DNA from: a virus
Length of the DNA stretch: 30,831 nucleotides
Direction: 5' to 3' (one strand)
Virus record (IMG/VR): IMGVR_UViG_3300023294_000063
Span: 1-30,831 of that record
Positions 4,995 through 30,477 of the stretch are shown piece by piece (position 1 is the stretch's first letter; every line of letters starts with the position of its first letter). A model generated the notes under the pieces. It was not told the DNA's origin. It saw nothing but the letters and a program-made list of their open reading frames with translations, and did not search any database. A program made the position numbers and the translations under genes.

Positions 4995-6638
4995 CTATAG
5001 AGTATTTAAACCTTCTACGAAAATTTTAGCATAAAATTCTGGTCTAACTACTTTCTTAGCATAACGAGTAAGTAAACCTTTACGTGGAGTAAATGTTTCT
5101 GGATCGTATACCAATGGAGTCATAATTAAAGGAATGTATGGGGCAAATACAGCACCTGCTTCTAAGAACTGACCACCTCTGAATCCCATAAGGATTGTAT
5201 TTTCAGTCATATAAGGGTTTTTATAAACAGTATATCTACTATTAATAGTACCTGATTTCTGTACACCAAATGCGTATGAAGCTTTTGCAGCATCACCATC
5301 TGAAGTACTAGCAAATCCCGGAATTGATTCCAAAATAGTAGCTACTGAAGGAGAACATACTAAGAAATTAGCACCACCTCTAAGAGTTTTCTGATGAATA
5401 ACATTACTTAACTTTTGAATCTTAGTTCCTAATGTTTGGAACCATTGGCCTTGAGAATTATAAAAACCTAAATCACTATTTACAACACCCGTTGATGCTA
5501 TGGATAAGTTGTTTTGTGCACTCCAGTATTCAGTACCAGCAGAAGCTGATTCGATCAACATATCAAGTATTTCCATATCAATTTCTAATGAGATATACTC
5601 ACTCATGATAGAAGTTAATTCAGCTTCAGCATCTAAACTATGGTAAGCGTTAAGATCTTGAGCAAATTCAGGAGTCCAAACAGCTTTCAATTTACGTGTC
5701 TTAGCAACAATGGCTTCAGAAGACATTTGAACGTTGATTTCTGGGATTGTGATTGGTGTGTTGTTGTTGTTTAAGTTATTATTTCTATCTTCAAAATCAC
5801 CTCTTTGGAAGTCTTTTGTTTCTAGTAAATACTCAACTTTAACTGCTCCACCCTTAACTACAGAACTACTGACAAAGAAGTCGATTGTTGTACTATCAGC
5901 ACTTACAGTAGTAAACTGTGGGTATTGGGTAGTAGAAGCTGGTAAGACAGCAGCTGAACCTGAAAGGTAGAATGCTCTTACTGCTCTTGTATCATAGTTA
6001 GGTAAAGATCCTACAGGAACTGACAACTTCACAATTTGATTTGAGGCACCCGCTACATAAGACTGGGAAACTGAAGAATCAGCATGTAGATCTGTATACC
6101 AGTTAACTGAAGCAGAAGCTACAGTGTAAGCTGCAGATTGTGTGTTGTTGATAGAGTATCCAAAACGACCCGCACCATAAGCACCACCTGTAGATCCATT
6201 ACCAAATGGAGTATTACCATCAGTATCACCATACATAGAATCACCTGATGTGAATGGAGCTTTTGTAGTACCATATTGGAAATCTAGATAAAATACTAGG
6301 CCAGAAGGAAGATTCATTGGTTGAACCGAAACGAATTCTTTCGCTGCGATTTGACCAAATACTTTTCTTACCAATGGTAAAGCAACACCTGCCCACTGAG
6401 CACCTGTTCCAGCTGTAAATGTACCTGATGTTCCTGCAGGACCTCCAGTTTGACTTGTTTCTACAACAAGCTGTTTAGCTTGATTTTCTAGGATCATAGA
6501 CATATTGTTCTTGTCAGTATCGTTTGGAATACCTTCTAACAATCCTGTCTTGCTCCACTTATTGGCTAATCTTGCAGCATCACTTTGTAATGACTTATAA
6601 GGATTAGCACTTTCTAATAAAGAATTTAATTGACTCAT
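4995..6638 (-). CDS. Major capsid protein, T4 gp23-like
   Basis: This protein has 547 residues. Near residue 80 the ALPLVRKVFGQIAAKEFVSV stretch leads into 'QPMN.PSG.VF', the hallmark N-terminal region of gp23. The C-terminus has the family pattern NPYMTENTILMGFRGG and then APYIPLIMTP, ending with RPEFYAKIFVEGL. It forms the hexamers of the head. In T4, gp23 is cut by gp21 near residue 65; here candidate (I/L/V)-x-E sites are ILE at 49-51 and VVE at 58-60. The leader is AT-rich without a clear Shine-Dalgarno, and a strong terminator follows. The gene lies directly after the core-protein gene, as in T4. Confidence 0.95.
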   Translation of the reverse strand: MSQLNSLLESANPYKSLQSDAARLANKWSKTGLLEGIPNDTDKNNMSMILENQAKQLVVETSQTGGPAGTSGTFTAGTGAQWAGVALPLVRKVFGQIAAKEFVSVQPMNLPSGLVFYLDFQYGTTKAPFTSGDSMYGDTDGNTPFGNGSTGGAYGAGRFGYSINNTQSAAYTVASASVNWYTDLHADSSVSQSYVAGASNQIVKLSVPVGSLPNYDTRAVRAFYLSGSAAVLPASTTQYPQFTTVSADSTTIDFFVSSSVVKGGAVKVEYLLETKDFQRGDFEDRNNNLNNNNTPITIPEINVQMSSEAIVAKTRKLKAVWTPEFAQDLNAYHSLDAEAELTSIMSEYISLEIDMEILDMLIESASAGTEYWSAQNNLSIASTGVVNSDLGFYNSQGQWFQTLGTKIQKLSNVIHQKTLRGGANFLVCSPSVATILESIPGFASTSDGDAAKASYAFGVQKSGTINSRYTVYKNPYMTENTILMGFRGGQFLEAGAVFAPYIPLIMTPLVYDPETFTPRKGLLTRYAKKVVRPEFYAKIFVEGLNTL

Positions 6639-7964: not shown

Positions 7965-8567
7965 TTATATAATAGGACATACCCCATAGGAACATAATAT
8001 TTCACCTAATATGGTACTTACTTCTTGGTATCTATCTTGTGCTTTAAATTCTTGACTTTCTTTTACTAAATTCATAAATGAATCGGGATTTGATGGGGTT
8101 GAAACAAAATCCCAACACAGCAATTCAAAATCATCTTGCACTTCCATTAACCCACCTACATCTTTAAGTGAACCCATTCCTCTAGATGATACACCCACAG
8201 TAATACCACTTTCAACTAATGCTTTAAGTATGTTTCCATTTGGGGTGGGTAATATTTCTATCTTACCCATCACATTATCCCCATCCCACCACATATCTGC
8301 AATGTTATGGGATACGTTTTTGAGATTGATTACTGATGATTCTGGGTGATCTAATTCCCCCATAGCTCTGTGTTCTTTAACTAATGGGAGATATTTAGCT
8401 ATTTCTCTTTCCCATAATTCTCTTGAGTAATATCTACCATTTCCATTTTTAACCTCGGCTGTGGCTAAAATACCCTCAACTAAAGGAAGTCCTCTATTGG
8501 ATTTATTTTCAGACAGTCTTGATCTAACTGGTTTGAAAATGTGGGTTTCTACAAGGATTTTTTTCAT
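7965..8567 (-). CDS. Prohead core protease, T4 gp21-like serine protease
   Basis: This protein has 200 residues. The catalytic His lies in the GELDHP motif (His74) and the Ser in VGVSSRGMGS (Ser127/128), the layout of the gp21/herpesvirus-assemblin protease family. A DFVSTPSNPDSF stretch follows at 153-164, typical of the family. It acts inside the prohead, cutting scaffold, capsid and internal proteins after (L/I)-x-E, and then itself. The last 30 residues carry LVKE and ILGE, possible self-cleavage sites. It lies between the prohead-region genes and the core protein; a terminator follows. Confidence 0.9.
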   Translation of the reverse strand: MKKILVETHIFKPVRSRLSENKSNRGLPLVEGILATAEVKNGNGRYYSRELWEREIAKYLPLVKEHRAMGELDHPESSVINLKNVSHNIADMWWDGDNVMGKIEILPTPNGNILKALVESGITVGVSSRGMGSLKDVGGLMEVQDDFELLCWDFVSTPSNPDSFMNLVKESQEFKAQDRYQEVSTILGEILCSYGVCPII

Positions 8568-13559: not shown

Positions 13560-13568
13560 TATAAATAT
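13560..13568 (-). promoter_or_regulatory. ATATTTATA motif upstream of the portal gene
   Basis: The motif lies 12 bases before the portal ATG and touches the TerL stop codon. The A-rich leader resembles that at 1501 and 4702. Confidence 0.45.
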
Positions 13569-16312: not shown

Positions 16313-16908
16313 TATTTTCCAATTTTCCAATACATACTACCCGATAAAACAGGTTGGAAATTAGGGTTAATTCCTATCCCCAAACCATATATTTGTTTTT
16401 TCTTTGTTCTTAACAGCAACTTACCACCTAAATAATTAATTTGATTTGCTCTACCCATTAAACCTAAACCCCAATAAAATTCTCGTTGGTTGGTATACAC
16501 TGTATTTGTAACCGTTGTAATCGGTATTAAAAAATTAGTCGCCACACTGCGTGAGAATATTGTATTGCGCGTTATAGTATCATTAATTACGGCATAACCC
16601 ATGGTATCTATGTGTATAGTGTCATTATAAACATACTTGGTATAGTAATCTTTTAAAATTGCTAAGGTGTCTACTAATGATGGTACTGTGTCTGTTCTAG
16701 TTATTATTTTTTCTTTCCATTTAGGAATATATTTAGGGGTATATTTAATAATTGTGTCATATTTAACTTCAACTTTTGTTATTGTTATAGGTTCAGATAT
16801 GTTTACCCCACTACCACCACTACCCCCACTACAACTACGCATTATGAAGATAATACCAATTAATATTACTATCAGTAAAGTTTGAATATTTTTAAAGAAG
16901 TCCTTCAA
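16312..16908 (-). CDS. Membrane-anchored protein, unknown function
   Basis: This protein has 198 residues. A hydrophobic segment at about 8-24 (IQTLLIVILIGIIFIM) is followed by RSCSGGSGGSG, so it is either a single transmembrane anchor or, less likely, a lipoprotein-like signal. The rest is Thr/Asp/Tyr/Ile-rich beta strands with repeated DTI and DTV units, a style often met in inner-membrane or periplasmic proteins of Bacteroidota and their phages. The C-terminal 60 residues look like paired strands of alternating polarity (YWGLGLMGRANQ, IYGLGIGINP). An envelope or lysis-accessory role (spanin-like) is possible but unproven. It overlaps TerL by the TAATG junction and the preceding gene by 17 bases. 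Confidence 0.55.
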   Translation of the reverse strand: MKDFFKNIQTLLIVILIGIIFIMRSCSGGSGGSGVNISEPITITKVEVKYDTIIKYTPKYIPKWKEKIITRTDTVPSLVDTLAILKDYYTKYVYNDTIHIDTMGYAVINDTITRNTIFSRSVATNFLIPITTVTNTVYTNQREFYWGLGLMGRANQINYLGGKLLLRTKKKQIYGLGIGINPNFQPVLSGSMYWKIGK

Positions 16909-17395
16909 GTTCTTTTTTGATTTTAGTAAGTTCTTTTAAACGGTTAATTAATTTTTCCTTTTCCTCACCTAAATCAGCATTTTTCCACCTATTAAGTACA
17001 GTTTTCATTTCTTGTGAATTTTGTTGGAGTTTATTTGCTATTTTAGATATGGAGTCACCTTTTTTAGCTGATTTGGATGCTTTTTTATCCATAGTATCCT
17101 CATCCTCTTCTTCATTTAAACCATCGTATTTTCTTTGTTTTAAAGCTGATTGAATGGCATATACAGCATCTTGTTCACTATAACCATACCTTTTAGACAT
17201 GGCAGTGATAAAACGGGATAATGCTTTGGTTATTTCGGGGTTGATTGATTCTTTCATAAGGTCTTTAGTTATTTCTAATTCCTTATTTAATTTAGATTGT
17301 GCTGATGTTTTGTCTTTAATGTCTTCTGCGGTTTCTTCTGAGAGTATTGATTTTATTTCTGTTTGAATTTGGTGTCGTAATTCTGATTTTTTCAT
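16892..17395 (-). CDS. Leader-bearing virion-type protein with DAVYAI module
   Basis: This protein has 167 residues. Residues 1-20 (MKKSELRHQIQTEIKSILSE) form a charged helix ending LSE, a likely prohead-protease site. Residues 52-96 hold a module (core YGYSEQDAVYAI, end YDGLNEE) that aligns without gaps, 22 of 45 identical, with residues 211-255 of the 626-residue protein at 27328-29208. A Lys/Ser patch and a coiled coil fill the C-terminus. It is probably a capsid-internal or core-associated protein. It has an ATATTTATA motif 16 bases before its ATG and overlaps the membrane-protein gene downstream. Confidence 0.6.
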   Translation of the reverse strand: MKKSELRHQIQTEIKSILSEETAEDIKDKTSAQSKLNKELEITKDLMKESINPEITKALSRFITAMSKRYGYSEQDAVYAIQSALKQRKYDGLNEEEDEDTMDKKASKSAKKGDSISKIANKLQQNSQEMKTVLNRWKNADLGEEKEKLINRLKELTKIKKELEGLL

Positions 17396-19011: not shown

Positions 19012-19800
19012 TTATACCTCGTTCAAAAATGATTCGGCCACATAAACACCCTGCGAACCCGCAACAGTGATCCCTCTAGCAGATAATGCGTCTCCTACAA
19101 AATGAACGTTAGGATATTTAGTTAAAGACAAATCCTTATAATTAACTAGGGGTTCTGCTGACAGATATTTTACTTCTGGTACATATACACCCCAATCATC
19201 TTTTAATGTAGGAAATACTTTTTTCATATCCTCTATAAAATCTTCAATATACGAGTAATAACCCCCCATTGTTTCTCTTACATATTCCATACCTGCTTCA
19301 TCTATTTGGGTAGCTGATACATTTTCACCTTCTGATGTTGTTGTAGGTTTACGTGTAGGACTATAATATAAACCTGTGCCTCCTATTTGTAATTTTTTAA
19401 CTACATCTCTTGACCACTCAAATGGGTTTTCTATTCCTTGAACCTCCATTAAAATTCCAAAATTTGTCATGTTGTTTCTAAAAGATTCATCCTTTTTAGC
19501 ATGACCATTATAGCTATGATTACCATATGTTTCCTCAACAGCAACATAGGCTGCGTTGTTGTTTGTACAGAATGAACGAAGTGATACTCCTTTATCCTCG
19601 TACTTACGATATAATTTGAAGTCATAGGATACATCAATCAATTTTTGAAAGTGTTTTTGTGGTGCTTCAAATCGAACACCTATTTGTACTGGTTTTGGTT
19701 CTGTAGGTAAGTCATATTTTTCAGCTAATTCTTTACCAAAGTCAATACCTGATTTGCCTACACCAAATATAAGTTTATCATATTTTATTGTTTCTTTCAT
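19012..19800 (-). CDS. FAD-dependent dehydrogenase, C-terminal piece of a split gene
   Basis: This protein has 262 residues from an ATG at 19800. It has no N-terminal Rossmann motif but starts with KYDKLIFGVGKSG, a strand that normally follows the FAD-domain 'xxxADxLIxAxGRSG' region, and ends PNVHFVGDALSARGITVAGS then GVYVAESFL, the usual C-terminal FAD-closing motif of COG2509-type dehydrogenases. The missing first part is encoded at 20848-21390. Together they give about 440 residues, a full-length enzyme. The gap is filled by endonuclease and GNAT genes. It may be made as a separate chain that pairs with the N-terminal chain, or the enzyme may be dead. The GNAT stop is in the same frame 12 bases upstream. 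Confidence 0.8.
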   Translation of the reverse strand: MKETIKYDKLIFGVGKSGIDFGKELAEKYDLPTEPKPVQIGVRFEAPQKHFQKLIDVSYDFKLYRKYEDKGVSLRSFCTNNNAAYVAVEETYGNHSYNGHAKKDESFRNNMTNFGILMEVQGIENPFEWSRDVVKKLQIGGTGLYYSPTRKPTTTSEGENVSATQIDEAGMEYVRETMGGYYSYIEDFIEDMKKVFPTLKDDWGVYVPEVKYLSAEPLVNYKDLSLTKYPNVHFVGDALSARGITVAGSQGVYVAESFLNEV

Positions 19801-20850: not shown

Positions 20851-20879
20851 TTTTTTATATGGTTCGTATTCAATTTCAT
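20232..20879 (-). CDS. GIY-YIG homing endonuclease
   Basis: From the ATG at 20879 it has 215 residues (a TTG at 20888 is an alternative). GIY-YIG core: FIYSL (13-17) and FYIGKT (24-29), Arg35, the metal-binding Glu in WECYWIEQL (Glu64) and LINKNKGGGG (79-87), all in order. The C-terminal half is highly basic, with KPKHTIETKIK and a YNFKYKGIYNLIKGK then TYKKWKIK end, resembling NUMOD-type DNA-recognition segments. Its start overlaps the end of the dehydrogenase N-terminal piece in another frame. It is complete, so probably active or recently so. Confidence 0.88.
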   Translation of the reverse strand: MKLNTNHIKNRVFIYSLERNNIPFYIGKTKNPKSRKADWLREYKDSISFNIIDEVNKENWKFWECYWIEQLKGWGFDLINKNKGGGGLEKHSDEVIELIRKQKIGKKQNRTKVRKDKGTIRIKKPGIKIGSPKGWKMSEKVRKTKNQKQIGKPKHTIETKIKFADPTIYKFYNIETQEIFEGIRYDFQNRYNFKYKGIYNLIKGKAKTYKKWKIK

Positions 20880-21390
20880 TTGTATCAAAGTTTATATTTG
20901 TTACCTTATGTTCCCATAAGAAATTAACGTTCTTCGATAATAAATATGTATACCAGTTCTTTCCTATACAAGAAAGGTAATCAGTACCAACATGCCATAC
21001 TGGGAATAATCTTAATCCAAAGTGTGGTTTAATAAAATCCGGTTCTTCTTTTGGATCTGAACATTGTACTTCTTCAGGTTTTGGGTGGAAACGTTTAAAA
21101 TTTGCTATTACTTGATCAAATAAATTCATGGATTTTTCCTCACCACAATATTTACTTAATTGACCCCCAATTGATGTGTGGTAGGTTAATTTACCATCAC
21201 TCCAACCACCAGCTCCTAAGAAACCTTCCATTACTTCAGAATATTCTCTTCGGTATGGATCTTTACCCATATCAATGATAGTTATTAATTCTCCAGGATA
21301 ACCATTATCTACTAATTTGGTAGCAGCGTTTACTCCTGCAACACCTGCACCTACTATTACTATTTTTTCTTGCATTAGTTTTACCATCAT
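20848..21390 (-). CDS. FAD-dependent dehydrogenase, N-terminal piece of a split gene
   Basis: This piece has 180 residues. The Rossmann FAD-binding motif VIVGAGVAGVNAA lies at residues 11-23, followed by a GFLGAGGWSDGKLTYHTSIG segment (57-75), typical of COG2509-type dehydrogenases. It stops at TAG after EYEPYKK, just where the rest of the enzyme (19012-19800) should continue. A start at 21375 (MQEKIVIVGAG) is at least as likely as 21390, because it puts the dinucleotide fold right at the N-terminus as usual. A strong terminator lies 22 bases upstream, so transcription must begin in the short gap or come by read-through. In isolation this piece holds FAD-binding but not the complete active site. 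Confidence 0.8.
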   Translation of the reverse strand: MMVKLMQEKIVIVGAGVAGVNAATKLVDNGYPGELITIIDMGKDPYRREYSEVMEGFLGAGGWSDGKLTYHTSIGGQLSKYCGEEKSMNLFDQVIANFKRFHPKPEEVQCSDPKEEPDFIKPHFGLRLFPVWHVGTDYLSCIGKNWYTYLLSKNVNFLWEHKVTNINFDTNEIEYEPYKK

Positions 21391-21412
21391 TTATTTACGT
21401 TAAGATACGAAC

Positions 21413-21449
21413 AAAAAGTGACATCTCCAAATTATTTGGTAGATGCCAC
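21413..21449 (-). terminator. Strong terminator before the split dehydrogenase
   Basis: On the minus strand GTGGCATCT-A-CCAAA pairs with TTTGG-AGATGTCAC around a TAA loop (14 bp, one bulged A, one G-T pair), followed by TTTTT (21413-21417). It closes the operon of the 109-residue acidic protein and LRR genes and isolates the accessory island. The rest of the 139-base gap shows nothing further. Confidence 0.8.
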
Positions 21450-21529
21450 AGATATCTATTATTATTTTTAAAATCGAATGGGCTATGAATCCATTCTATA
21501 AGTTTTTTTGTTTGTATTATGGTATTTTA

Positions 21530-21859
21530 TTATTCATCACCAAAAGGAGTATATCCTTCTTCTGAATCGTCATATTCTTGGGGGTTTCGGAGTTGTTGTC
21601 CTGAGGAGTTGTAGTAATATTCACCATCAAACCATTCGTAACTATCTGAGGGTGGGTAATATTTTTCTTCCATGTTAGATGTATCAAATTCGTCATACTC
21701 CCCATCGTATTCAACTTCCCCTCTATCTGCTTTATCAAACCATTCTTCTTCTTCTACTTGTCCAAAATCCCCAGCATCCATACGATCTTCTAAATCATCA
21801 TCGGGTTGGGGGGTTTTTACTTCTGCTAAGTATTTTCTAAATGCTGTTAATTCTTTCAT
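21530..21859 (-). CDS. Small, highly acidic leader-bearing protein
   Basis: This protein has 109 residues. Residues 1-13 (MKELTAFRKYLAE) match the short charged leader with L-A-E seen in neighbours, a probable prohead-protease site. The rest is very rich in Asp, Glu, Tyr and Gly (for example YDGEYDEFD) and almost without Lys or Arg. No fold is recognised. An acidic packaged protein could balance charge or mimic DNA, but that is speculation. It starts 16 bases after the LRR gene stop and is followed by a terminator. Confidence 0.5.
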   Translation of the reverse strand: MKELTAFRKYLAEVKTPQPDDDLEDRMDAGDFGQVEEEEWFDKADRGEVEYDGEYDEFDTSNMEEKYYPPSDSYEWFDGEYYYNSSGQQLRNPQEYDDSEEGYTPFGDE

Positions 21860-21875
21860 TTTAGTTTTATTATAA

Positions 21876-22403
21876 TTATATATAAATATTACCTTTTACA
21901 CTAGGTACCATTTGTTTGATTTGTTCTTTACTATATTTTTCAGAGATGGGGGTATTAAGTAAATAAAGATCACCTCCTACTGTTAAGCCTTGGGGGAGGG
22001 AGGTTATTAGAGTATTTCTTAAATTAAGACTACCTCCTACTGTTAAACCTTGAGGTAGGGTGGTTATTGGGGTATTTCTTAAATCAAGAGAACCTCCTAC
22101 TGTTAAACCTTGAGGTAGGGTGGTTATTGGGGTATTACTTAAATAAAGATCATCTCCTACTGTTAAACCTTGAGGTAGGGAGGTTATTGGGGTATTATTT
22201 AAATAAAGAGTACGTCCTACTGTTAAACCTTGAGGGAGGGTGGTTATTGGTGTACTTGACAAATCAAGATCACCTTTACCTCCATCCTTCATGTATTGTT
22301 GAATCTTCTTTTGAGTAGCAATTAAATAGTTCTTAGAGCGTTCTTCTTTGGAACGTCTAGGGACTAGGATTTTATTTTCTAATATGTCTATTAATTTTAT
22401 CAT
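21876..22403 (-). CDS. Leucine-rich-repeat protein, 5-repeat paralogue
   Basis: This protein has 175 residues: a 52-residue cap (MIKLIDILENKIL, then KNYLIATQKKIQQYMKDG), five exact 20-residue LRR units of the form ITxLPQGLTVGGxLxLxNTP, and a 23-residue tail (SKEQIKQMV). Cap and tail are nearly the same as in the 11-repeat gene just upstream, so they are tandem duplicates that differ in repeat number. The cap includes I-L-E at residues 7-9, a possible prohead-protease site. LRR solenoids bind proteins; the partner is unknown. It overlaps the upstream paralogue by 4 bases (ATGA). Confidence 0.8.
   Translation of the reverse strand: MIKLIDILENKILVPRRSKEERSKNYLIATQKKIQQYMKDGGKGDLDLSSTPITTLPQGLTVGRTLYLNNTPITSLPQGLTVGDDLYLSNTPITTLPQGLTVGGSLDLRNTPITTLPQGLTVGGSLNLRNTLITSLPQGLTVGGDLYLLNTPISEKYSKEQIKQMVPSVKGNIYI
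21948..22247. repeat. 60-bp LRR-coding tandem repeats (5 units)
   Basis: Five 60-bp units encode the LRRs of the shorter paralogue. They are in-frame coding repeats with a shared TLPQGLTVG core, not a CRISPR array. Confidence 0.85.
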
Positions 22404-23290
22404 TTTATATAAATATCACCTTTAACTCCAGGTACCATTTGTTGAATTTGTTCTTTGCTATATTTTTTAGAAAGTGGGGTATTTCTTAAATCAAGATAAC
22501 CTCCTACTGTTAAATCTTGAGGTAGGGAGGTTATTTTAGCCCGAGATAAATGAAGATTACCTCCTACTTTTAAATCTTGAGGTAGGGAGGTTATTGGGGT
22601 ATCAGTTAAATGAAGATTACCTCCTACTTTTAAACCTTGAGGTAGGGAGGTTATTTTAGCCCAAGATAAATGAAGATTACCTCCTACTTTTAAACCTTGA
22701 GGTAGGGAGGTTATTGGGGTATCAGTTAAATCAAGATTACCTCCTACTTTTAAACCTTGAGGTAGGGAGGTTATTGGGGTATTAGTTAAATCAAGATTAC
22801 CTTCTACTCTTAAACCTTGAGGTAGGGAGGTAATTGGTGTATCAGTTAAATGAAGATCACCTCCCACTGTTAAATCTTGAGGTAGGGAGGTTATTTTAGC
22901 CCGAGATAAATGAAGATTACCTCCTACTTTTAAATCTTGAGGTAGGGAGGTTATTGGGGTATCAGTTAAATGAAGATTACCTCCTACTTTTAAACCTTGA
23001 GGTAGGGAGGTTATTTTAGCCCAAGATAAATGAAGATTACCTCCTACTTTTAACCCTTGAGGTAGGGAGGTTATTGGGGTATTTCTTAAATGAAGATTAC
23101 CTCCTACTTTTAACCCTTGAGGTAGGGAGGTTATTGGGGTATCAGTTAAATTAAGATCACCTTTACTCCCATCCTTCATATATTGTTGGATTTTCTTTTG
23201 AGTAGCAATTAAATAATTCTTAGAACGTTCTTCAGGGGAGCGTCTTGTAACAAGTATTTTATTTTCTAATATGTCTATTAGTTTAATCAT
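22400..23290 (-). CDS. Leucine-rich-repeat protein, 11-repeat paralogue
   Basis: This protein has 296 residues: a 52-residue N-terminal cap with I-L-E at 7-9, eleven 20-residue LRR units (ITSLPQGLKVGGNLHLTDTP type), and a 24-residue tail (KKYSKEQIQQMVPG). Variable positions at the unit end alternate TDTP, SWAK, SRAK and RNTP; one block of units recurs after six units, showing recent internal duplication. Such T/S-LPQGLxVGG repeats occur in many phages, often linked to WCT-motif proteins as here (its start overlaps the stop of the WCT gene, TAATG). It probably forms a binding solenoid, possibly carried in the capsid. Confidence 0.82.
   Translation of the reverse strand: MIKLIDILENKILVTRRSPEERSKNYLIATQKKIQQYMKDGSKGDLNLTDTPITSLPQGLKVGGNLHLRNTPITSLPQGLKVGGNLHLSWAKITSLPQGLKVGGNLHLTDTPITSLPQDLKVGGNLHLSRAKITSLPQDLTVGGDLHLTDTPITSLPQGLRVEGNLDLTNTPITSLPQGLKVGGNLDLTDTPITSLPQGLKVGGNLHLSWAKITSLPQGLKVGGNLHLTDTPITSLPQDLKVGGNLHLSRAKITSLPQDLTVGGYLDLRNTPLSKKYSKEQIQQMVPGVKGDIYIK
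22475..23134. repeat. 60-bp LRR-coding tandem repeats (11 units) with a 360-bp duplication
   Basis: Eleven 60-bp units. Units at 22501-22680 match those at 22861-23040 almost base for base (the 22561-22680 and 22921-23040 stretches look identical), a 360-bp period. This indicates duplication of a block within the array. Confidence 0.85.
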
Positions 23291-24039
23291 TATGAAATTC
23301 CTATTATATTAGTATATTCTTTTATATCGTTAGATGAAATTTGTTTATCTAACCCATCATACCCATCAATTCCCCCATTATCTAATACCGCCAAAGCAAC
23401 AACTACTAAATTCTTCCAAGTTTTTGGAAATTTATCTTGAAGTTGATTTATCATTTGCTGTGACTTTACTTTAACATAATAAAAAGTTACATTATTTGTA
23501 TAGTAATAATCATTAAAGTGATCGGGGGCTTTATATGTTGTACACCATGAAGAATCTTTTCCACCATCCCCACAGTCTCTAAATGCAAATTGGGATAATC
23601 CAAGTTTACGAGATGCTTCGTGGGTGTGGGGGGACATTATTAATAGGTCTGAATTCTCTAATACAGTATCGTAGTCGGATTCTAATTCTTTGGTGGATAT
23701 GTTTTCTCCGGCGTTGTTTATTTGGTCAACTTCATCTTGAAGGGCTTTAAAGGATTTAATTTGGTAAATATCTTTGGTTTTTGTTTTACCTTTTTCTAAG
23801 AGTGTATTGAACTCTTCAATGGTGTTTCTTAAATCGTCTATATCTGTAATTTGTTTTTCTACCCATTGTTTCGCCATCCACCCCACATACTTACGTGTTG
23901 GGGAAGGGTCTATATCAGTTAATATTTTTAACTCCTCTTGGGTTAGTTTATCTGAATCAACATATTGTTTGGCCTGTCTTATGTTTTCTAATATTGAATG
24001 TTTGTTTTCAATTAATAGTTTTGAATAATTAAATTTCAT
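23290..24039 (-). CDS. Phage WCT-motif protein, unknown function
   Basis: This protein has 249 residues. It opens MKFNYSKLLIENKHSILENI, with L-I-E and I-L-E sites (9-11, 16-18) as in other leader-bearing proteins. Residues 38-62 include TDIDPSPTRKYVGWMAKQW. Residues 150-190 contain DSSWCTTYKAPDHFNDYYY and FYYVKV; I associate the 'WCT(A/T)...F..Y......YY(I/V)' pattern with a widespread uncharacterised phage family frequently joined to the LPxxLxVGG LRRs. Here it is in the same operon as two LRR genes. No catalytic activity can be assigned with confidence. Confidence 0.65.
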   Translation of the reverse strand: MKFNYSKLLIENKHSILENIRQAKQYVDSDKLTQEELKILTDIDPSPTRKYVGWMAKQWVEKQITDIDDLRNTIEEFNTLLEKGKTKTKDIYQIKSFKALQDEVDQINNAGENISTKELESDYDTVLENSDLLIMSPHTHEASRKLGLSQFAFRDCGDGGKDSSWCTTYKAPDHFNDYYYTNNVTFYYVKVKSQQMINQLQDKFPKTWKNLVVVALAVLDNGGIDGYDGLDKQISSNDIKEYTNIIGIS

Positions 24040-24078
24040 ATTGTTGTTTTTTATATAATATGTTGACTATTGAATAGG

Positions 24079-24792
24079 TTATGAATTCGTTGGGATCCAA
24101 AATGAAGCATTTCCATCTAATGTTAAACCATATCCATTGACTAGTAGATGTGCTGCGGCTAATTCATCGGAACCACCAGATGTGAGTGTCCACTCACCTG
24201 AGTATGCTTCGTAGGGGTATATCTCTTCCATAACCCAAGCAGCTAAATTACCTACTGCGACTTGATATGTTATCCTCATACCCCACTTATCTGATAATTC
24301 GCCCGCTCCCCTTACAGGTGAGGAATGCATTATTACAGTGTAATCTCCATCAATTATAGGGTTACCAGGGAAAAGTTGTTGGTTATTACCACTTGTATTA
24401 TAAAAACCCCCTATTGATGAAGTGAGAGAATCCCATGAGGGGTTACCATTGATGTCTCGGTATTCTAGTGCAAAAGTTTCAAAATTTACTACTCCTAATG
24501 ATGCTAGTTGGTTTTCCCCTGCTGGTAGAGTAGATGATGAATTTATATCAAATGCAAACCCCTTACTAATATCAGCTATACCATCAATAAACACACCTGA
24601 GGCTTCTTCATGAACTGCAACCCCATTAATGTTGGTTACTCCAGGGGTGTTGATTTTAATCAGTGTGCTCTTTTGATATTCTCCACTTTCTCCGGCCCCA
24701 TTATCCCATGTTCCAAAATTTAAAATCCCTTCATAGGAACTGGAAAAGGGTAGTGAGTGTAATCCTCCTATCTGTAATGATAAATCTGGCAT
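24079..24792 (-). CDS. Beta-rich hypothetical protein, possibly structural
   Basis: This protein has 237 residues, rich in Gly, Ser, Asn and aromatic residues, with no Cys and few Lys. It opens MPDLSLQIGGLHSLPFSSS and has a central AFALEYRDINGN-like strand region plus a C-terminal GYGLTLDGNASFWIP. The composition fits an all-beta virion surface, fibre or carbohydrate-binding protein. I do not recognise a family. It lacks the charged L-x-E leader of the genes around it and sits between the WCT gene and a Cys-cluster protein, so it may be an insertion in that operon. Confidence 0.5.
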   Translation of the reverse strand: MPDLSLQIGGLHSLPFSSSYEGILNFGTWDNGAGESGEYQKSTLIKINTPGVTNINGVAVHEEASGVFIDGIADISKGFAFDINSSSTLPAGENQLASLGVVNFETFALEYRDINGNPSWDSLTSSIGGFYNTSGNNQQLFPGNPIIDGDYTVIMHSSPVRGAGELSDKWGMRITYQVAVGNLAAWVMEEIYPYEAYSGEWTLTSGGSDELAAAHLLVNGYGLTLDGNASFWIPTNS

Positions 24793-24798
24793 GTTTTA

Positions 24799-25179
24799 TT
24801 ATAATTTAATAATGTTCATATTTGGGTATAAGTGGGCACTTTTTGAACCTTTAATATACACCGTATTTTCTATGGGGAAATCTAAAGGAACTTTTTTTCC
24901 TTCAAATATACCGAAATATCCTAAATCTGTTTCCCTTAAAATCTTTAAATCTTTTTTATTTTCTACTTCTAAAATACCACGAGAGTACATATAACGAGCT
25001 TCAGCCCATAAGTTAAAATATTTAGGTGAACCCACACGATGTAGTGTGTCTGTTAATGGTTTATTAGCGTATATGTAGCGCTGTATATCATTAGATAATA
25101 TACCACGAGGGGCTTTATTTTCATTAAGTTTTAACGTGGGTTTTTCAGTTCCACAAGTATCACATCCACAGTTACACAT
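24799..25179 (-). CDS. Conserved phage protein with Cys cluster and LNE site
   Basis: This protein has 126 residues. The N-terminus carries four Cys in nine residues (C2, C4, C6, C9), a possible metal site, and KLNE at 17-20, a candidate prohead-protease site that would remove the cluster. The body (IQRYIYANKPLTDTLHRVGS, then FNLWAEARYMYSRGI) resembles a module of uncharacterised proteins I have met in marine T4-like phages. Function unknown; probably virion-associated. It lies between the 377-residue protein and the beta-rich protein with gaps of 6-7 bases. Confidence 0.5.
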   Translation of the reverse strand: MCNCGCDTCGTEKPTLKLNENKAPRGILSNDIQRYIYANKPLTDTLHRVGSPKYFNLWAEARYMYSRGILEVENKKDLKILRETDLGYFGIFEGKKVPLDFPIENTVYIKGSKSAHLYPNMNIIKL

Positions 25180-25186
25180 ATTTATT

Positions 25187-26320
25187 TTATATTATATCGT
25201 TATAAGATAATTCTCTAACATTAGATGTGATTTTAGCATCTTTAGAGGGTATTATTCTAAAATCTAACCCTTGACTTTTTCCTCTATGTTGAGCAACTGC
25301 AAATACTGGGTCTATATTTGCCTTTTCTAAATCTTCTAATGTGTTGTAAATATTAGAGACTTTTACATTAATTACCCCGTTTTCTAAAGAGTATTCTCCT
25401 TTTTCAGGTTTACCAACTATTATTACTTGGGGGGTTTCTGGTCCAAAAACCCAGTTATTTATGTCATCTTTAGGAAAATCTGGGATTATAGCTTTTGAGA
25501 TTCTATTTCCTGTAATAGGATCATACATCAAATACTTACCAGGGACATCTGGATTTTGTTTTAACTCTAAATCAGTTAATTTACCATTAATGGCATCATT
25601 AATAAATTTTGTGATAAATTCTTTATATATAGATATAACTGACGCCCACCTAAAACCACTATCTTTTTTTAATGAAATGTTTGAATCTACTTTACTATTA
25701 GACATAAACTGGACATCTGATTTAGCTCCTTTCCCAGCATCTGTTTTGGAAGAATCTCTAATATTTGTTATATTGTAAAAAGGAAGTTTTTTATCGGGGG
25801 ATATGAGTACTACAGTTGCTTCACCTCCGTTCTCTTCAATTAAACTATTAATATTCTCTATAAAATCACCTTCACTTCCTTTACCATCACCTCCTGGGGG
25901 TTTGTTACTTACAACTATGCTAACTTTGCCGAATTCTTGGGTGTTAAAAACATACATATTAAATGTTCCGCTAGGGTTGGGGGGTTGATTTTTAGGGATA
26001 ACTTCTATGTCTAACTTTTCACCAAATGCTTCTTGAAATAAATCAATAAAAAATTGGATTTCATTTTTACCCTCAATACCCAATCTAGTTTTATCTGATT
26101 TTTCTACAAAGTTATACTTACCCCCTAAGGTATCTATTATAAATCGTATTGCTTCTTTAGTACCATTGCGATTTTCTAATTCATTTAACCTAAATTTCTT
26201 ACCCAATATATCACCCACCAAGGATTCCAATATCAAAACATCCTTCTCATTATTCATGTCAGGATATCCTTTTGGGAATTTATATGCTATTTTATTTAAA
26301 TATTTAGTAAGGGTGCCCAT
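25187..26320 (-). CDS. Hypothetical protein, possible nuclease-like fold
   Basis: This protein has 377 residues. The first 50 are charged and include RLNE (44-47), a possible processing site. The middle has IDIEVIP-type and 'GKVSIVVSNK' strands. At about 199-219, AKSDVQF followed by ISLKK resembles the D...(S/E)xK half of PD-(D/E)xK nucleases, as seen in 'ISLK' phage proteins, but this is a weak match. The C-terminus (RGKSQGLDFRIIPSK) is mixed. It starts after five ATT (AAT on the coding strand) repeats and an ATATTTATA motif, in a gap of 68 bases. An internal virion nuclease is one idea only. Confidence 0.45.
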   Translation of the reverse strand: MGTLTKYLNKIAYKFPKGYPDMNNEKDVLILESLVGDILGKKFRLNELENRNGTKEAIRFIIDTLGGKYNFVEKSDKTRLGIEGKNEIQFFIDLFQEAFGEKLDIEVIPKNQPPNPSGTFNMYVFNTQEFGKVSIVVSNKPPGGDGKGSEGDFIENINSLIEENGGEATVVLISPDKKLPFYNITNIRDSSKTDAGKGAKSDVQFMSNSKVDSNISLKKDSGFRWASVISIYKEFITKFINDAINGKLTDLELKQNPDVPGKYLMYDPITGNRISKAIIPDFPKDDINNWVFGPETPQVIIVGKPEKGEYSLENGVINVKVSNIYNTLEDLEKANIDPVFAVAQHRGKSQGLDFRIIPSKDAKITSNVRELSYNDII

Positions 26321-26335
26321 ATTATTATTATTATT
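26321..26335. repeat. (ATT)5 microsatellite directly before the 26320 start codon
   Basis: Five perfect ATT units (AAT on the coding strand) abut the start ATG. Length change would alter the distance between the ATATTTATA motif and the start codon. Confidence 0.6.
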
Positions 26336-26339
26336 CTTG

Positions 26340-26348
26340 TATAAATAT
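26340..26348 (-). promoter_or_regulatory. ATATTTATA motif upstream of 26320
   Basis: The motif lies 19 bases before the ATG, separated from it by the ATT repeat. Confidence 0.4.
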
Positions 26349-26388
26349 ACTAAAAATCTTTAACGTATCCCCACATAGTGCCCTATAT

Positions 26389-26895
26389 TTACCAAGCTTT
26401 ACAAGACCAATATCTTGCCATTGTTTTAGGTCCGGGAGAATCACAATTAAATCGTGATCTAAATGCTTTTCTACGTTTTGGGTTAGATTTTCTAATACTC
26501 ATAGTTGGACGTTTTGCAGATGTACCACCATGTCCAAAATTTACTTTTTTTACTTTAATAGAACCATCAGCATTTTTCTTACCTGAGTTGACATATACTT
26601 TAAATTTTTTACTATCACCTCGTGTTGGTTTGTTTAATATAACTGTTTTACCTTGGTATTTTGCTTCTGTAATATTTTCATCAATGATTTCCATTTCCAT
26701 TAATTCATTAATGTCCATATCTTCTTCCATAGGTACACAATTATCAACGGTTTTACCACCTTTCTTTTTTGTGCCTACTAATTTATATCCTTTCCAACAT
26801 GCTTTTCCATCTATTCCCTTAAGTTTTTCATCTATTTCACCTTCACTTAATAGTTTACCTTCAGCTAAGTATTTCCTTAAATCGAAATTATCCAT
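26389..26895 (-). CDS. Leader-bearing two-module protein with basic RYWSCKAW end
   Basis: This protein has 168 residues. MDNFDLRKYLAEGKLLSE carries L-A-E (10-12) and L-S-E (16-18); the first nine residues are nearly the same as in the 29434-29850 protein. Module 1 (33-53) is CWKGYKLVGTKKKGG...NC. I-T-E at 75-77 then precedes module 2, a basic domain with VNFGHGG, RKSNPKRRKAFRSR and the end CDSPGPKTMARYWSCKAW. Both modules resemble ones I recall from uncharacterised marine-phage proteins. The arrangement looks like two packaged peptides joined by cleavable linkers. The basic end could bind DNA. Confidence 0.6.
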   Translation of the reverse strand: MDNFDLRKYLAEGKLLSEGEIDEKLKGIDGKACWKGYKLVGTKKKGGKTVDNCVPMEEDMDINELMEMEIIDENITEAKYQGKTVILNKPTRGDSKKFKVYVNSGKKNADGSIKVKKVNFGHGGTSAKRPTMSIRKSNPKRRKAFRSRFNCDSPGPKTMARYWSCKAW

Positions 26896-26918
26896 TTTTA
26901 TTTAATTGTGATTTATTC

Positions 26919-27353
26919 TTAAATTTCTACGTCTGGTATATCATCTATTTCAACATCATCTCCTTCCCCGGTTTCAGCCGTATCCTCTGATTTTGGTCCA
27001 TATCGTAATATACGAGATATTGCTAACGTTGCTCTTTCCTCTTCAGGTAGGTTTAATAGATAATATTTTTTACCCTCTACTTGAGCTATCCAACTTCTCC
27101 TAGAATATATTAGATAGAATTCTTGGTCGTTTTTTAAGTTGATTCTAAATGTGGTGGGTTTAGGAGAAACCCAATCTATGGAAGAGAGGAATGAATCAAA
27201 ATCTGACGTTAACAGATCGACTATAATCGATTTTAGTTCAGGGAATTTTGTAAGTTCATCGTATTCAACGGCCGCTATATCAGATTTCTGTTGGGATTTA
27301 TATACAAGGGGCACAATTGACTTAATTTTATCCCTTAGTTCTACCTTTGTCAT
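26919..27353 (-). CDS. Conserved small phage protein with acidic tail
   Basis: This protein has 144 residues. MTKVELRDKIKSIVPLVYKS starts with a leader-like helix but has no clear L-x-E. The core, FLSSIDWVSPKPTTFRINLK and then FYLIYSRRSWIAQVEGKKYY, is a compact beta domain that resembles others in large marine phages, function unknown. The last 25 residues are acidic (EGDDVEIDDIPDVEI). It overlaps the 626-residue gene by 26 bases, so they are probably translated together. Confidence 0.5.
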   Translation of the reverse strand: MTKVELRDKIKSIVPLVYKSQQKSDIAAVEYDELTKFPELKSIIVDLLTSDFDSFLSSIDWVSPKPTTFRINLKNDQEFYLIYSRRSWIAQVEGKKYYLLNLPEEERATLAISRILRYGPKSEDTAETGEGDDVEIDDIPDVEI

Positions 27354-29208
27354 TTTGCAATAGTTTTTCGTTATTTATCAGATCAATTATATCCTTAATT
27401 TTATCTCTTTCGGGGTGAGCTTCTAATCTATCTTCTTCTTTAGCTTTAGCCCATTCCTCTTCAGACATTCCTTCATTTGTATCTCTACTTACCATCAATC
27501 TTTTAGCTAATTTTTTAGCAACTGATTCAAAGGTTGGTGAATTATGTTTGGGGATTGGATTTAGAGTATCAACTGCGATATCAATTTTAGGTTCATTAAT
27601 TTCAAAGTCAAGATAGTGTTTTGCACCAACTATTGCTGTTTTAGCATTTGTTATTTTTGCTTGCCACCATGATGGAAAATCAACTTCCCCTTCACCTTCA
27701 AACCCATCAACCATGTTATACAATTCCATAGCATATTTTCCAATACGATATAAATCTGCTTTTAACATATGTGGTTCATTGTCTTCGTGGCCTAAATCTA
27801 AGTCTTCGTTTAAATCATCTTGTTTAACCCAAAATGTATCTAATTTACCTAATATAGCTGAAGGTTCGTTACGACGAATATAAATTCTGTCGTCTTCACG
27901 TCTTACTACTTCATGGTCTTCACCATTATATTTTACAATTTCTGATTTGTTTTCGTTTAAACCATATTTTAAATTTGACTTAAAAATATCACTCATACCA
28001 GAACTTTGTTCTACAGCATTTTTAATTTCTTGTAATACTTGACCCACAGTCATTTTTCTACTAACCATATTTTCTATGGCTCTAGTAATCATTTGTCTGT
28101 CTCCGTCAATAGCACCTTCGTTTAAACCTTTAGATATTTCATCTTCATCCTCATTGTAATCTTCAACCACCATATTTCCAACTATTTTTTTAATTGCTGA
28201 AACTAATGTATCAATATAATTTGGATCTTTTTTACTTCGGACACTAACTGAGTATGCTCCCTTTTGGGTTAAAATCAAAATAAATTGACCGTTTTTAATT
28301 CCAATATCAAAGTAGTTATGGGTAAATTGCATTGTTTTATTTAATTCCAACCCAACCTGAACTGTTAATTTTGGTAACGTTTGTGATGATTGTGATGTTT
28401 TTATCCCCAAGGGGATTGTAACCTTATTACCTTCAGTAACTAATTCTTCATTTAAACCATCATAGTTTTGTTTTCTTAGTACTTGCGTAATAGCGTAGAC
28501 AGCATCCTGTAATGAGTAGTCGTACATATCTGCTAATTTTCTTACAAACCCATTTACCAATCTATCTAATTCAGGGTTAACATTCTCATTCATATTATAT
28601 CCAGTTTTAGAGGATAGTTTTAAACCTTTCTTTTCAGCATATTTTTGTGCTTCTAAAGGTGAGTCGAATATCATGTCAATTTGAGCTGAACCATTTGGTT
28701 TTTCTAACACGTATGAGGGTATAGCTTTACTACCTGTTTTAGATATCATTACTTCATCTCCAACCTCACCCATATATTCCTCAATTGATTTTGTTTGTTT
28801 TTTATACTTAGATAGTAAATTAGCTATTTTGTCATCTTTCCCAACCATTGTATTAATTTGACTAGGTTCTAATTTTCTACCATAGTATTTTTCTATTTGA
28901 TTTTTGAGGTCTTTAAGTTGAGAGGGTTCGTTTACTTCTATTTTACGTTCCTCAAGATTTTCATTTTGGGTTTTATTTAAATCGGCTTTTTTAGGGTTCA
29001 TTAGAGAGGATTTAATCATCTCTTTTAGTTTTTCGTTATTCATTGATTTTGTTTGTTTTTTAGCCTGATTTGTTGCTCTACCATACATCACAGCTTCAGC
29101 ATCCTTACCATACTGTTTTACTAAAGCACGTTTATTACCCTTCATATTCATAATGATATCTTCGCGTTTTGCTAATTCAGTTTTGGTAAGTTTGCGTTCG
29201 TTAAGCAT
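27328..29208 (-). CDS. Mosaic 626-residue protein with repeated LNE sites; probable polyprotein
   Basis: Modules separated by charged linkers: residues 20-52 (KGNKRALVKQYGKDAEAVMY type); 58-70 NEKLKEMIKSSLM, a copy of the leader of the 30422 gene; 140-205 a mixed domain; 211-255 the DAVYAI module shared with 16892-17395; 262-348 a beta/alpha domain; 370-415 a small helical unit; 420-465 a strand unit; 478-540 a helical unit (LYRIGKYAMELYNMV, PSWWQAKI). L-N-E occurs at 2-4, 252-254, 362-364, 417-419 and 466-468, mostly at module borders. L-x-E is the gp21 cleavage rule, so I infer a polyprotein cut into head-internal peptides. No enzyme is recognised. Confidence 0.6.
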   Translation of the reverse strand: MLNERKLTKTELAKREDIIMNMKGNKRALVKQYGKDAEAVMYGRATNQAKKQTKSMNNEKLKEMIKSSLMNPKKADLNKTQNENLEERKIEVNEPSQLKDLKNQIEKYYGRKLEPSQINTMVGKDDKIANLLSKYKKQTKSIEEYMGEVGDEVMISKTGSKAIPSYVLEKPNGSAQIDMIFDSPLEAQKYAEKKGLKLSSKTGYNMNENVNPELDRLVNGFVRKLADMYDYSLQDAVYAITQVLRKQNYDGLNEELVTEGNKVTIPLGIKTSQSSQTLPKLTVQVGLELNKTMQFTHNYFDIGIKNGQFILILTQKGAYSVSVRSKKDPNYIDTLVSAIKKIVGNMVVEDYNEDEDEISKGLNEGAIDGDRQMITRAIENMVSRKMTVGQVLQEIKNAVEQSSGMSDIFKSNLKYGLNENKSEIVKYNGEDHEVVRREDDRIYIRRNEPSAILGKLDTFWVKQDDLNEDLDLGHEDNEPHMLKADLYRIGKYAMELYNMVDGFEGEGEVDFPSWWQAKITNAKTAIVGAKHYLDFEINEPKIDIAVDTLNPIPKHNSPTFESVAKKLAKRLMVSRDTNEGMSEEEWAKAKEEDRLEAHPERDKIKDIIDLINNEKLLQNDKGRTKG

Positions 29209-29217
29209 GTGTATTTT

Positions 29218-29373
29218 TTATTTATGTTCTCTTTTGAAATCAGCAGATAAATTTTTAATTTTGTTAGCGGCAGATCTACATCTTCCTTTAGCAGCAGATG
29301 ATGTTTTGTCAATTTCTGCTTCAATCAATAGTACTTGTGCTTTGATTCCTTCTAGTAATTCTTTAGTTTCCAT
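29218..29373 (-). CDS. Histone H1 / Hc1-like small DNA-binding protein
   Basis: This protein has 51 residues, starting METKELLEGIKAQVLLIEAE. The C-terminal half, KTSSAAKGRCRSAANKIKN then LSADFKREHK, is Lys/Arg/Ala-rich and matches the style of Bacteroidota histone H1-like (Hc1) proteins, which have an N-terminal coiled helix and a 'KAAGxRxRKAxxxLxKLxKEFRK' region. It may coat phage or host DNA. It is a small gene missed by a minimum-length filter but has an A-rich leader with an ATTTATAA element about 13 bases before its ATG, and lies tightly between its neighbours (9 bases to the next start). Family call is by eye and should be searched. Confidence 0.65.
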   Translation of the reverse strand: METKELLEGIKAQVLLIEAEIDKTSSAAKGRCRSAANKIKNLSADFKREHK

Positions 29374-29433
29374 AATTTTTATTTTTTATAAATTTGATTG
29401 TTTGTTTACCTTTATTTTATTTTTTGATTCCTG

Positions 29434-29850
29434 CTACTTTTTAGAAATACCCATCATCCTTAGATATTCTTTTCTATTTTTATCTTGATCAATAGTATTT
29501 CCGGGGTTGATGAAATCATCTGACTCATCATCACCAAACTCTTTAAGTTTTTTATCTCTTAATTTGTTAACCCCCTCAATGATGCTATCTATAAATTTGT
29601 TAATATCTTCTTTATTTTCAAATTCACTATGCATCATATCATCCTCAATCTGATCAATAAGATATTTAGAATTTTGATCTACAATGTAATCATCGGAGTT
29701 TTCTTTAATTTTGTTTTTAGCTTCGTAAGCAGCTTTAATACCCTCTAGTGTTGGTAATGCTTCGCCTTGTTTTCTTGTGTCGTATCCAGGTGAATTTTCT
29801 TTTAGTAGCGTTCTTGCACTAACGAATTTTTTTAAATCGAAATTATCCAT
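29434..29850 (-). CDS. Leader-bearing hypothetical protein
   Basis: This protein has 138 residues. The first 18 (MDNFDLKKFVSARTLLKE) end in L-K-E and share the MDNFDL(K/R)K start, and more than 20 bases of DNA around the start codon, with the gene at 26389-26895. The rest is helical and polar, with many Asp/Glu/Lys/Asn. It ends KEYLRMMGISKK, which recalls the 'RF.KLAGII' ends of the core-like proteins. Function unknown; probably packaged in the head. A pentanucleotide repeat fills the gap upstream and reaches its start codon. Confidence 0.5.
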   Translation of the reverse strand: MDNFDLKKFVSARTLLKENSPGYDTRKQGEALPTLEGIKAAYEAKNKIKENSDDYIVDQNSKYLIDQIEDDMMHSEFENKEDINKFIDSIIEGVNKLRDKKLKEFGDDESDDFINPGNTIDQDKNRKEYLRMMGISKK

Positions 29851-29884
29851 TTTATTTTATTTTATTTTATTTTATTTTATTTTA
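29850..29884. repeat. (TTTTA)7 pentanucleotide microsatellite
   Basis: Seven perfect TTTTA units (TAAAA on the coding strand) run from the start codon at 29850 back across the stop codon of the upstream gene (29877-29879). They serve as the leader of the 29850 gene, so copy-number change would alter its ribosome-loading region. Confidence 0.85.
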
Positions 29885-30422
29885 TGATCCCTGCTAGTTT
29901 TTTAAACCTAATAGACTCAGATAAATCTTCTTCCTCATTAACACCACTTTCATCTACTCTTGCAATATGTGCTCTAGTAAAATATGTAATTGTATTACCA
30001 ATTTGATCTGTTAGTTTTTCATCTCCAAGTTTAGTTGCTTCTTCTTGAGCTTTCATTAATAAACCTTGAATTGCTTCTTCGCTTTCGCTTTCGCCTGGCA
30101 TTGAAGTTTCAATTTCAATATCTGTTTCTTCGTCATCGATTACAACATCTTTTTCAATGTCAACATCTATATCTTCATCTTCTTCAACGTCTACGTCTTT
30201 AGCTTCCTCAATTGAAGTTGATTCGGCCATAGCTGCATTTTTAACTGTTTCGATACCTGCAAATAAATCATCAGATAAATATAGTTCTGCATGGTATTCT
30301 TCTACAAGATCATCAAGTTCTCTTAAAAATGATTTTATTCGTTCTGGTTTGTTAGTGTGAAATTCTGATGCTTCGGCTAACATAGCAGACTTGATCATTT
30401 CTTTTAATTGAGATTTTTTCAT
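29877..30422 (-). CDS. Acidic core-like protein with cleavable leader
   Basis: This protein has 181 residues. MKKSQLKEMIKSAMLAE (1-17) ends in L-A-E, the best T4-type capsid-targeting and cleavage signal in the window. Residues 75-105 are nearly all Asp/Glu/Val/Ile (DVDVEEDEDIDVDIEKD). The end, RFKKLAGIIK (172-181), matches RFQKLAGIIR of the core protein at 6682-7764. The same plan of basic leader, acidic middle and KLAGII end suggests a paralogue or partner of the prohead core. It probably goes into the prohead and is cut there. Confidence 0.6.
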   Translation of the reverse strand: MKKSQLKEMIKSAMLAEASEFHTNKPERIKSFLRELDDLVEEYHAELYLSDDLFAGIETVKNAAMAESTSIEEAKDVDVEEDEDIDVDIEKDVVIDDEETDIEIETSMPGESESEEAIQGLLMKAQEEATKLGDEKLTDQIGNTITYFTRAHIARVDESGVNEEEDLSESIRFKKLAGIIK

Positions 30423-30450
30423 TGGTTTTAACGTTTTGTGTAAATTTTAT

Positions 30451-30459
30451 TATAAATAT
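30451..30459 (-). promoter_or_regulatory. ATATTTATA motif upstream of 30422
   Basis: The motif lies 28 bases before the ATG at 30422, in the gap after the partial gene. A run of seven C's (coding strand) lies between it and the upstream stop. Confidence 0.4.
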
Positions 30460-30477
30460 GCGTGGGGGGGTTATTAA

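Follow-up and report, generated by a model that had tools for sequence, protein, structure and literature searches.

A modular protein of a T4-like phage with junctions at hydrophobic-x-Glu: a probable head polyprotein for the prohead protease

The window, which is the whole 30,831-bp stretch of viral DNA analysed here, is a fragment of a T4-like phage whose host is probably a member of the Bacteroidetes, and it encodes gp23, gp20, terminase and an S77 prohead protease. The terminase large subunit gene (13568-16330) is interrupted by a Hint/LAGLIDADG segment, a probable intein. A gene for an FAD/NAD-binding protein is apparently split (19012-21390): 20848-21390 encodes its N-terminal part and 19012-19800 probably the C-terminal one, with a GIY-YIG endonuclease-like ORF (20232-20888; no Pfam match) and a GNAT acetyltransferase (19813-20247) between them; no Rfam intron was found. 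Positions 21876-23290 hold two tandem related genes composed of TPITSLPQGLKVGGNL repeats of about 20 residues, with matches at many offsets both between the genes and within each, and the 5' end of the window (7-1202) codes for low-complexity VPEVPEVP and leucine-rich repeats of a collagen- or fibre-like kind.

The gene of main concern reads on the minus strand from an ATG at 29208 to 27328 and specifies a modular protein of 626 residues. The initial annotation had taken it for a probable polyprotein, a fused chain of unrelated head-internal modules joined by L-N-E tripeptides and released by a gp21-like protease. Its parts, and two related genes, are as follows, with Ψ standing for L, I, V or M.

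27328..29208 (stop ends at 27328), minus strand: ORF of the whole 626-aa modular protein; LNE 5 against 0.39 expected
28972..29208, minus strand: module N, residues 1-79 (LTKxELxKREDII...YGKDAExVMYGRATNxAKK...); Ψ-(N/T)-E directly before it in most relatives
29197..29205, minus strand: LNE site 1, residues 2-4; MINE, MVNE, MNE, NITE or PITE at the same place in relatives
28999..29043, minus strand: leader-like internal peptide, residues 56-70; LKEMIKS in common with the 30422 N-terminus; conserved within module N
28777..28926, minus strand: module P, residues 95-144 (PSQLKDLKNQIEKYYGRKLEPSQ...); relatives L089, L090
28585..28764, minus strand: module K, residues 149-208 (MISKTGSKAIPSYVLEKPNGSAQIDMIF...GYNMNE); relatives L038, L040
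28585..28593, minus strand: MNE site, residues 206-208, at the K/B junction
28447..28584, minus strand: module B, residues 209-254 (NVNPELDRLVNGF...YDGLNE); also in the 17395 gene and in L004, L013, L089, L090, L091, L066
28447..28455, minus strand: LNE site 2, residues 252-254; YDGLNE, YDGINE or DADGVNE in relatives
28117..28431, minus strand: module C, residues 260-364 (GNKVTIPLG...); no relatives found
28117..28125, minus strand: LNE site 3, residues 362-364
27952..28116, minus strand: module R, residues 365-419 (GAIDGDRQMITRAIENMVSRKMTVGQVLQEIKNAVEQS...KYGLNE); L085/L086, L087
27952..27960, minus strand: LNE site 4, residues 417-419; LRE in relatives
27805..27951, minus strand: module W, residues 420-468 (EIVKYNGEDHEVVRREDDRIYIRR...LNE); L005, L011, in differing contexts
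27805..27813, minus strand: LNE site 5, residues 466-468, at the start of module D
27559..27804, minus strand: module D, residues 469-550 (DLDLGHEDNEPHMLKADLYRIGKYAMELY...HYLDFE); shared with relatives
27328..27558, minus strand: C-terminal segment, residues 551-626 plus stop; partial similarity in relatives
16892..17395, minus strand: separate gene with a second copy of module B; 43% identity
26919..27353, minus strand: 144-aa gene overlapping the 3' end of the 626-aa gene; domain fused in immuto gp079

The five LNE tripeptides lie precisely where they had first been placed, at residues 2-4, 252-254, 362-364, 417-419 and 466-468, and none of 20,000 shuffles of the protein's own composition reached five. 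The dipeptide NE is also abundant (15 against 4.5 expected by shuffling), and [LIVM]NE (ΨNE), at 8 against 1.16, is the only strong excess of its kind among the genes of the window. The generic pattern L/I-x-E is not in excess (10 against 8.9 by shuffling); the signal is thus one of LNE and ΨNE specifically, and the claim rests on these together with the module boundaries. Two boundaries had escaped the initial annotation, one at MNE 206-208 and another, probable, at MGE 146-148. At VNE 92-94 and INE 537-539 the following residue (P1') is proline, which may block cutting at these two sites.

Searches with the 626-aa protein returned little: nothing was matched in Pfam, including any enzyme or peptidase domain, PHROGs gave only an anti-repressor family (E=0.004), and Foldseek of the model against the PDB gave no match at E<=0.001. 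The AlphaFold model, from an alignment of 18 sequences, is of low confidence (mean pLDDT 57, pTM 0.26) and consists of several pieces in a non-compact arrangement, with local helical or mixed elements and no common core. It had been suggested that the LNE sites be looked for in disordered linkers. All five lie in stretches of pLDDT below 50 (rotation test 0.006), as do seven of the eight ΨNE sites (rotation test 0.002), and low mid-protein pLDDT also reflects the shallow alignment, so that this evidence is supporting rather than decisive. In the model the LNE sites are not buried in a single folded domain, and they are predicted to be accessible and in linkers, as in a protease substrate. Other tripeptides (LKE 61, VLE 167, LQE 392, INE 537) fall in predicted helix or strand, and hence the motif alone cannot suffice.

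A scan of IMG/VR with the 626-aa protein identified 80 related viral loci, whose proteins have only pieces of it in common, in other orders, with other partners or as separate genes. Modules N and D are the commonest pair and are separated by unrelated sequence of very different length; module D begins at residue 92 in L041, 102 in L038 and 466 in the 626-aa protein. It starts sharply, at E|DLDLGHEDNEPHM, and the stretches upstream of DLDLGHEDNEP are unrelated among the proteins, yet end in LNE, MNE, LKE, ISE, LDE, MKE, VKE, VTE, LEE and others. Similarly, module N is preceded by LNE, INE, VNE, MNE, ITE or VTE in most relatives. Modules K and B sit in other genes of L038, L040, L004, L013 and L010, module K being found in L038 (1213-2622) and L040 (4781-5779) at 55-59% identity. 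In L090, and at residues 663-726 of the 902 in L089, module B is followed, not preceded, by a segment 87.5% identical to module P; L089 carries module B twice (88% identity). The modules run N-D-B in L091 and N-B-D in L066, where module B passes directly into D with one shared VNE. Module R occurs in small separate proteins, of 227 aa in L085/L086 (after SLNE) and of 195 aa in L087, and for module C a dedicated search found no relatives.

The idea of unrelated modules joined by LNE-type tripeptides is therefore strongly supported, with modules permuted, duplicated, swapped and, for several of them, present as separate genes in relatives, as it had been proposed to check. LNE does stand at module joins, but the recognised site is broader than LNE, namely (L/I/V/M)-(N/K/T/S/D/E)-E. 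Two internal copies reported earlier were also recovered: the leader-like stretch given as residues 58-70 lies within residues 56-70 (MNNEKLKEMIKSSLM), which have the exact heptamer LKEMIKS in common with the N-terminus of the 30422 protein (MKKSQLKEMIKSAML), and the copy of a 17395 module given as residues 211-255 extends over residues 200-257 (43% identity, E=4e-11).

A general junction rule was sought in all non-redundant genes of the loci by trimming homology breaks and grouping them into start-boundary families, counting only mutually unrelated upstream contexts and retaining families with at least four (n=38). Trimming and grouping by independent contexts are needed because raw BLAST HSP ends blur the signal, giving a peak of about 5-fold in the whole set and 0.10/0.09 against 0.026 in a 62-protein family. 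Glutamate occupies P1 in at least 65% of contexts in 23 of the 38 families, a frequency that is optimised because the P1 offset was picked per family; P3, which was not optimised, is L/I/V/M in at least 80% of contexts in 18 of these 23. P3 is hydrophobic in 78% of 176 contexts, as opposed to a background of 22.6% (binomial 2.6e-55), contexts that are not fully independent because the phages are related, a dependence reduced by the low identity cut-off. When K, D, A, S, N, T, L, G or I is picked as P1 in the same way, P3 is hydrophobic in an average of 0-36%, and it is the P3 and control figures that form the fair part of the comparison.

The module D junction, with 33 distinct upstream contexts, has Glu at P1 in 97% and L/I/V/M at P3 in 84%. 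Other modules that obey the rule include Ψ-N/T-E|ELCxKGKAYRKRR, Ψ-N-E|AIVGDKIECDNCxW (a zinc ribbon), Ψ-x-E|SYxxLVxKIKKQGK and Ψ-T-E|AMNMNKWRRAYNGK. An excess of Ψ-x-E at N-terminal residues 9-20 is present in modular and other genes alike and so does not mark out the modular class. Codons at ΨNE match the background (AAT/AAC 0.74/0.26 in both, GAA 0.88 in both); the junctions are thus conserved at the protein level, where selection acts, and a DNA repeat as the cause of LNE is ruled out. That modules are shuffled at Ψ-x-E in these phages is, on the comparative data, beyond reasonable doubt.

One such exchange is preserved in a neighbouring gene of 181 aa (29877-30422; L003:6616-7332):

30204..30371, minus strand: swapped cassette, residues 18-73 of the neighbouring 181-aa gene; an unrelated cassette lies in L003 between two x-x-E|A sites

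Over 20421-30206 (9.8 kb) the window and contig L003 are 99.88% identical; the identity stops at 30206 and resumes over 30370-30463, with both breaks inside this gene. The shared leader ends at MLAE|A (MLDE|A in L003), the shared C-terminal part starts after IEE|AKD (FNE|AKD in L003), and the cassette that L003 holds in between is unrelated and longer. As both breaks are at x-x-E, one recombination product replaced exactly one cassette. The L003 cassette is flanked by an 11-nt repeat, ATGAAGCTAAA, which may help the exchange. A second difference between the two sequences, near 30705 at about residue 126 of an upstream gene that is cut by the end of the window, has its break away from Ψ-x-E, and hence the rule is not universal.

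The enzyme that would act on such junctions is encoded in the window, as is a second presumed substrate:

7965..8567, minus strand: gp21-like prohead core serine protease (Peptidase_S77), presumed to do the processing; PF03420 E=4e-32, phrog_207 E=7e-59
6459..6467, minus strand: V58-x-E60 of the major capsid protein, presumably its maturation site; conserved in clade capsid proteins

The gp21-like protease invoked in the initial annotation is thus real, and an S77 protease is encoded in all six relatives tested. T4 gp21 cuts after L/I-X-E and cleaves the core proteins gp22 and gp67 into multiple fragments (PMC9026906). In the capsid protein, V/L-x-E at residues 58-60 is about 98% conserved in 52 aligned clade proteins, with variable P2 and P1'. 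V-x-E60 lies just before the mature domain, near the T4 gp23 propeptide length of 65 (PMC9026906), which suggests that it is the maturation site, corresponding to the cut in T4 gp23. Given the T4 gp21 rule, the S77 protease and this capsid site, Ψ-x-E is the expected specificity in this phage, and the 626-aa protein has hydrophobic-x-Glu at the expected cut positions (five LNE and MNE at module junctions). Counting against the match, P2 is often N at these sites, as compared with V/M/T at P2 of the capsid site. Judged from sequence, processing of the 626-aa protein by the gp21-like prohead protease nevertheless appears likely.

A location inside the head is suggested by the late-gene position upstream of terminase and by neighbouring N-termini that are like T4 capsid-targeting sequences. 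Several neighbouring genes, such as those at 26895, 29850 and 21859, start with MDNFDLRKYLAE, MDNFDLKKFVSARTLLKE or MKELTAFRKYLAE, which resemble T4 capsid-targeting leaders. The 626-aa protein itself starts MLNERKL and lacks a T4-like N-terminal targeting leader; only in some relatives is the N-terminus longer, by about 20 residues that end in Ψ-T-E. The internal leader-like stretch at 56-70 resembles the beginning of a formerly independent gene, and gp079 of phage immuto has a similar internal stretch, SKSELKEIMLE.

The T4 internal proteins have been described as diverse injected defence proteins with only a targeting leader in common (PMC3012670). In L003, the contig near-identical to the window, a modular protein of 1223 aa is encoded upstream (L003:339-4010). 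Its N-terminus is nucleotidyltransferase-like, and it further contains AHEMIHH (an HExxH stretch), a zinc ribbon, a 5'-nucleotidase and a weakly matching ParB-like stretch; the 5'-nucleotidase is a separate gene in immuto and other T4-like phages. With these enzyme domains nearby and the T4 internal proteins as an injected defence set, head cargo is favoured, and discarded scaffold is the main rival.

Together, these observations point to a head polyprotein of swappable cassettes, cut in trans by the prohead protease, whose fragments are retained or injected rather than discarded; we consider this explanation probable. The polyprotein would consist of short cassettes that evolve independently and are strung together, each ending in (L/I/V/M)-x-E, here mostly L-N-E. 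The chain would be made late and enter the prohead core, where the gp21-like S77 protease would cut after the junction glutamates during head maturation and so release some six to eight small products, proteins or peptides. At least some of these would probably stay with the DNA and be injected, by analogy with T4 IPI-III and Alt. As each junction would be a protease site, the gain, loss or reordering of cassettes, or their transfer to an adjacent gene, would leave the ends of the final products unchanged.

The same cutting could serve assembly instead, if the chain were a core or scaffold component whose fragments, mostly small peptides, are expelled to make room for DNA, like T4 gp22, gp67 and gp68, the modules then being assembly parts and not delivered cargo. 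Fragments of T4 gp22 and gp67 do mostly leave the head (PMC9026906), and the modules here are short (45-110 aa), mostly helical by prediction and, by Pfam, devoid of a recognised enzyme domain. However, a separate acidic gene (6682-7764) adjoining the capsid gene already holds the scaffold position, neighbouring modular proteins of the same phage have enzyme domains or motifs (nucleotidylyltransferase-like, 5'-nucleotidase, HExxH, zinc ribbon), and fast cassette swapping fits cargo better, which makes expelled scaffold unlikely.

Somewhat less likely again is a beads-on-a-string protein that works intact, Ψ-x-E being no more than a linker that is tolerated or a seam left by recombination. Cleavage by the prohead protease is inferred, not observed, shuffled multidomain proteins need no cutting, and the 11-nt repeat around the L003 cassette means that recombination alone could set the seams. 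Yet a DNA seam would fix nucleotides, whereas ΨNE codons are at background usage, and Glu at P1 with any of L/I/V/M at P3 has the form of a protease specificity, in line with gp21 and with no rule known for linkers. Finally, chance runs of LNE in a protein rich in L, N and E, as the unremarkable count of generic L/I-x-E might suggest, can be dismissed, being at odds with the shuffles and refuted by the coincidence of sites with module edges across dozens of proteins.

The cassette polyprotein thus being preferred, the prohead-protease site may further be a universal cassette connector, through which Ψ-x-E-closed modules are plugged in, moved, removed, released in the head and injected; we put the chances of this wider reading at about even. 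If it holds, the polyprotein cluster would be a fast-evolving cargo bay, perhaps of anti-defence or takeover proteins, and gene fusion and fission would be neutral, since the protease restores the same products. The head polyprotein itself, if real, would mean that a DNA phage relies on genuine polyprotein processing in trans. Environmental T4-like phages encode large hypothetical proteins that could then be split into functional units after hydrophobic-x-Glu at homology breaks, which would predict where to seek new injected phage proteins, and phage heads might be loaded with proteins through a naturally occurring system. Present database families mix such modules: one module of the 26389-26895 protein, 'CWKGYKLVGTKKKGGKTVDNCVP', recurs in eight PHROG families with differing placement, and the C-terminal half of that protein matches proteins of pelagiphages, roseophages and a Methylophilales phage.

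Of the known systems, gp21 processing is the nearest in mechanism. The T4 gp21 substrates (gp22, gp67, gp68, IPI-III and Alt) resemble the system of the window in the S77 family, the hydrophobic-x-Glu P3-P1 rule and the late head region, and neighbouring window genes begin with sequences (MDNFDLRKYLAE, MKELTAFRKYLAE) similar to the T4 targeting leader. The T4 internal proteins, however, are single cargoes with one short propeptide and an N-terminal leader, whereas the 626-aa chain is without the leader and has many unrelated modules swapped at the motif. In the giant phage SPN3US, according to the part of the account considered here (PMC10052503), a gp21 relative cuts head proteins after Glu (A-X-E) at several sites per long propeptide, while about 80% of head proteins are uncut; the sites reported there serve to take off propeptides at the N-terminus and, in the protease itself, one at the C-terminus, and that part of the account holds no description of a chain of shuffled modules.

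The nearest concept is that of the polyvalent proteins (P1 DarA/DdrB type) of phages and conjugative elements, which are proposed to be packaged, processed and injected and which their describers compare to the polyproteins of RNA viruses (Iyer et al. 2017, PMC5512222). Like the 626-aa protein, they are multidomain, mosaic and encoded among phage late genes (PMC5512222), and several unrelated modules in one chain, in mosaic architectures, are what is found here. Their release is proposed to occur via embedded peptidase domains (PMC5512222), whereas the sites of the 626-aa protein match a separate prohead protease. Pfam detected no embedded peptidase in the 626-aa protein, HExxH being present only in its 1223-aa neighbour in L003, and no polyvalent-protein domains in this system.

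The closest individual counterpart is gp079 of Flavobacterium phage vB_FspM_immuto (Immutovirus), a cultured relative with a complete genome. It is a modular hypothetical protein of about 841 aa encoded upstream of terL, with module D and the same junction type. Its ΨNE count (7 against 0.70 expected) is by far the largest excess among immuto ORFs of at least 100 aa, while p<=0.02 is attained by three unrelated genes with 2-3 sites. The module set of gp079 differs from that of the 626-aa protein, and its C-terminus is the domain of the separate 144-aa gene of the window, 26919-27353 (43% identity, 97 aa, E=7e-25). No description of a cassette polyprotein cut in trans at its recombination motif was found in the literature searched, which lay outside subscription journals, and a study of phage protein shuffling (PMC10684548) mentions neither polyproteins nor proteases. 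The underlying themes, gp21 substrates and polyvalent proteins, are already known; what appears to be new is the combination of a polyvalent-type mosaic with gp21-type processing at the very motif where the cassettes recombine.
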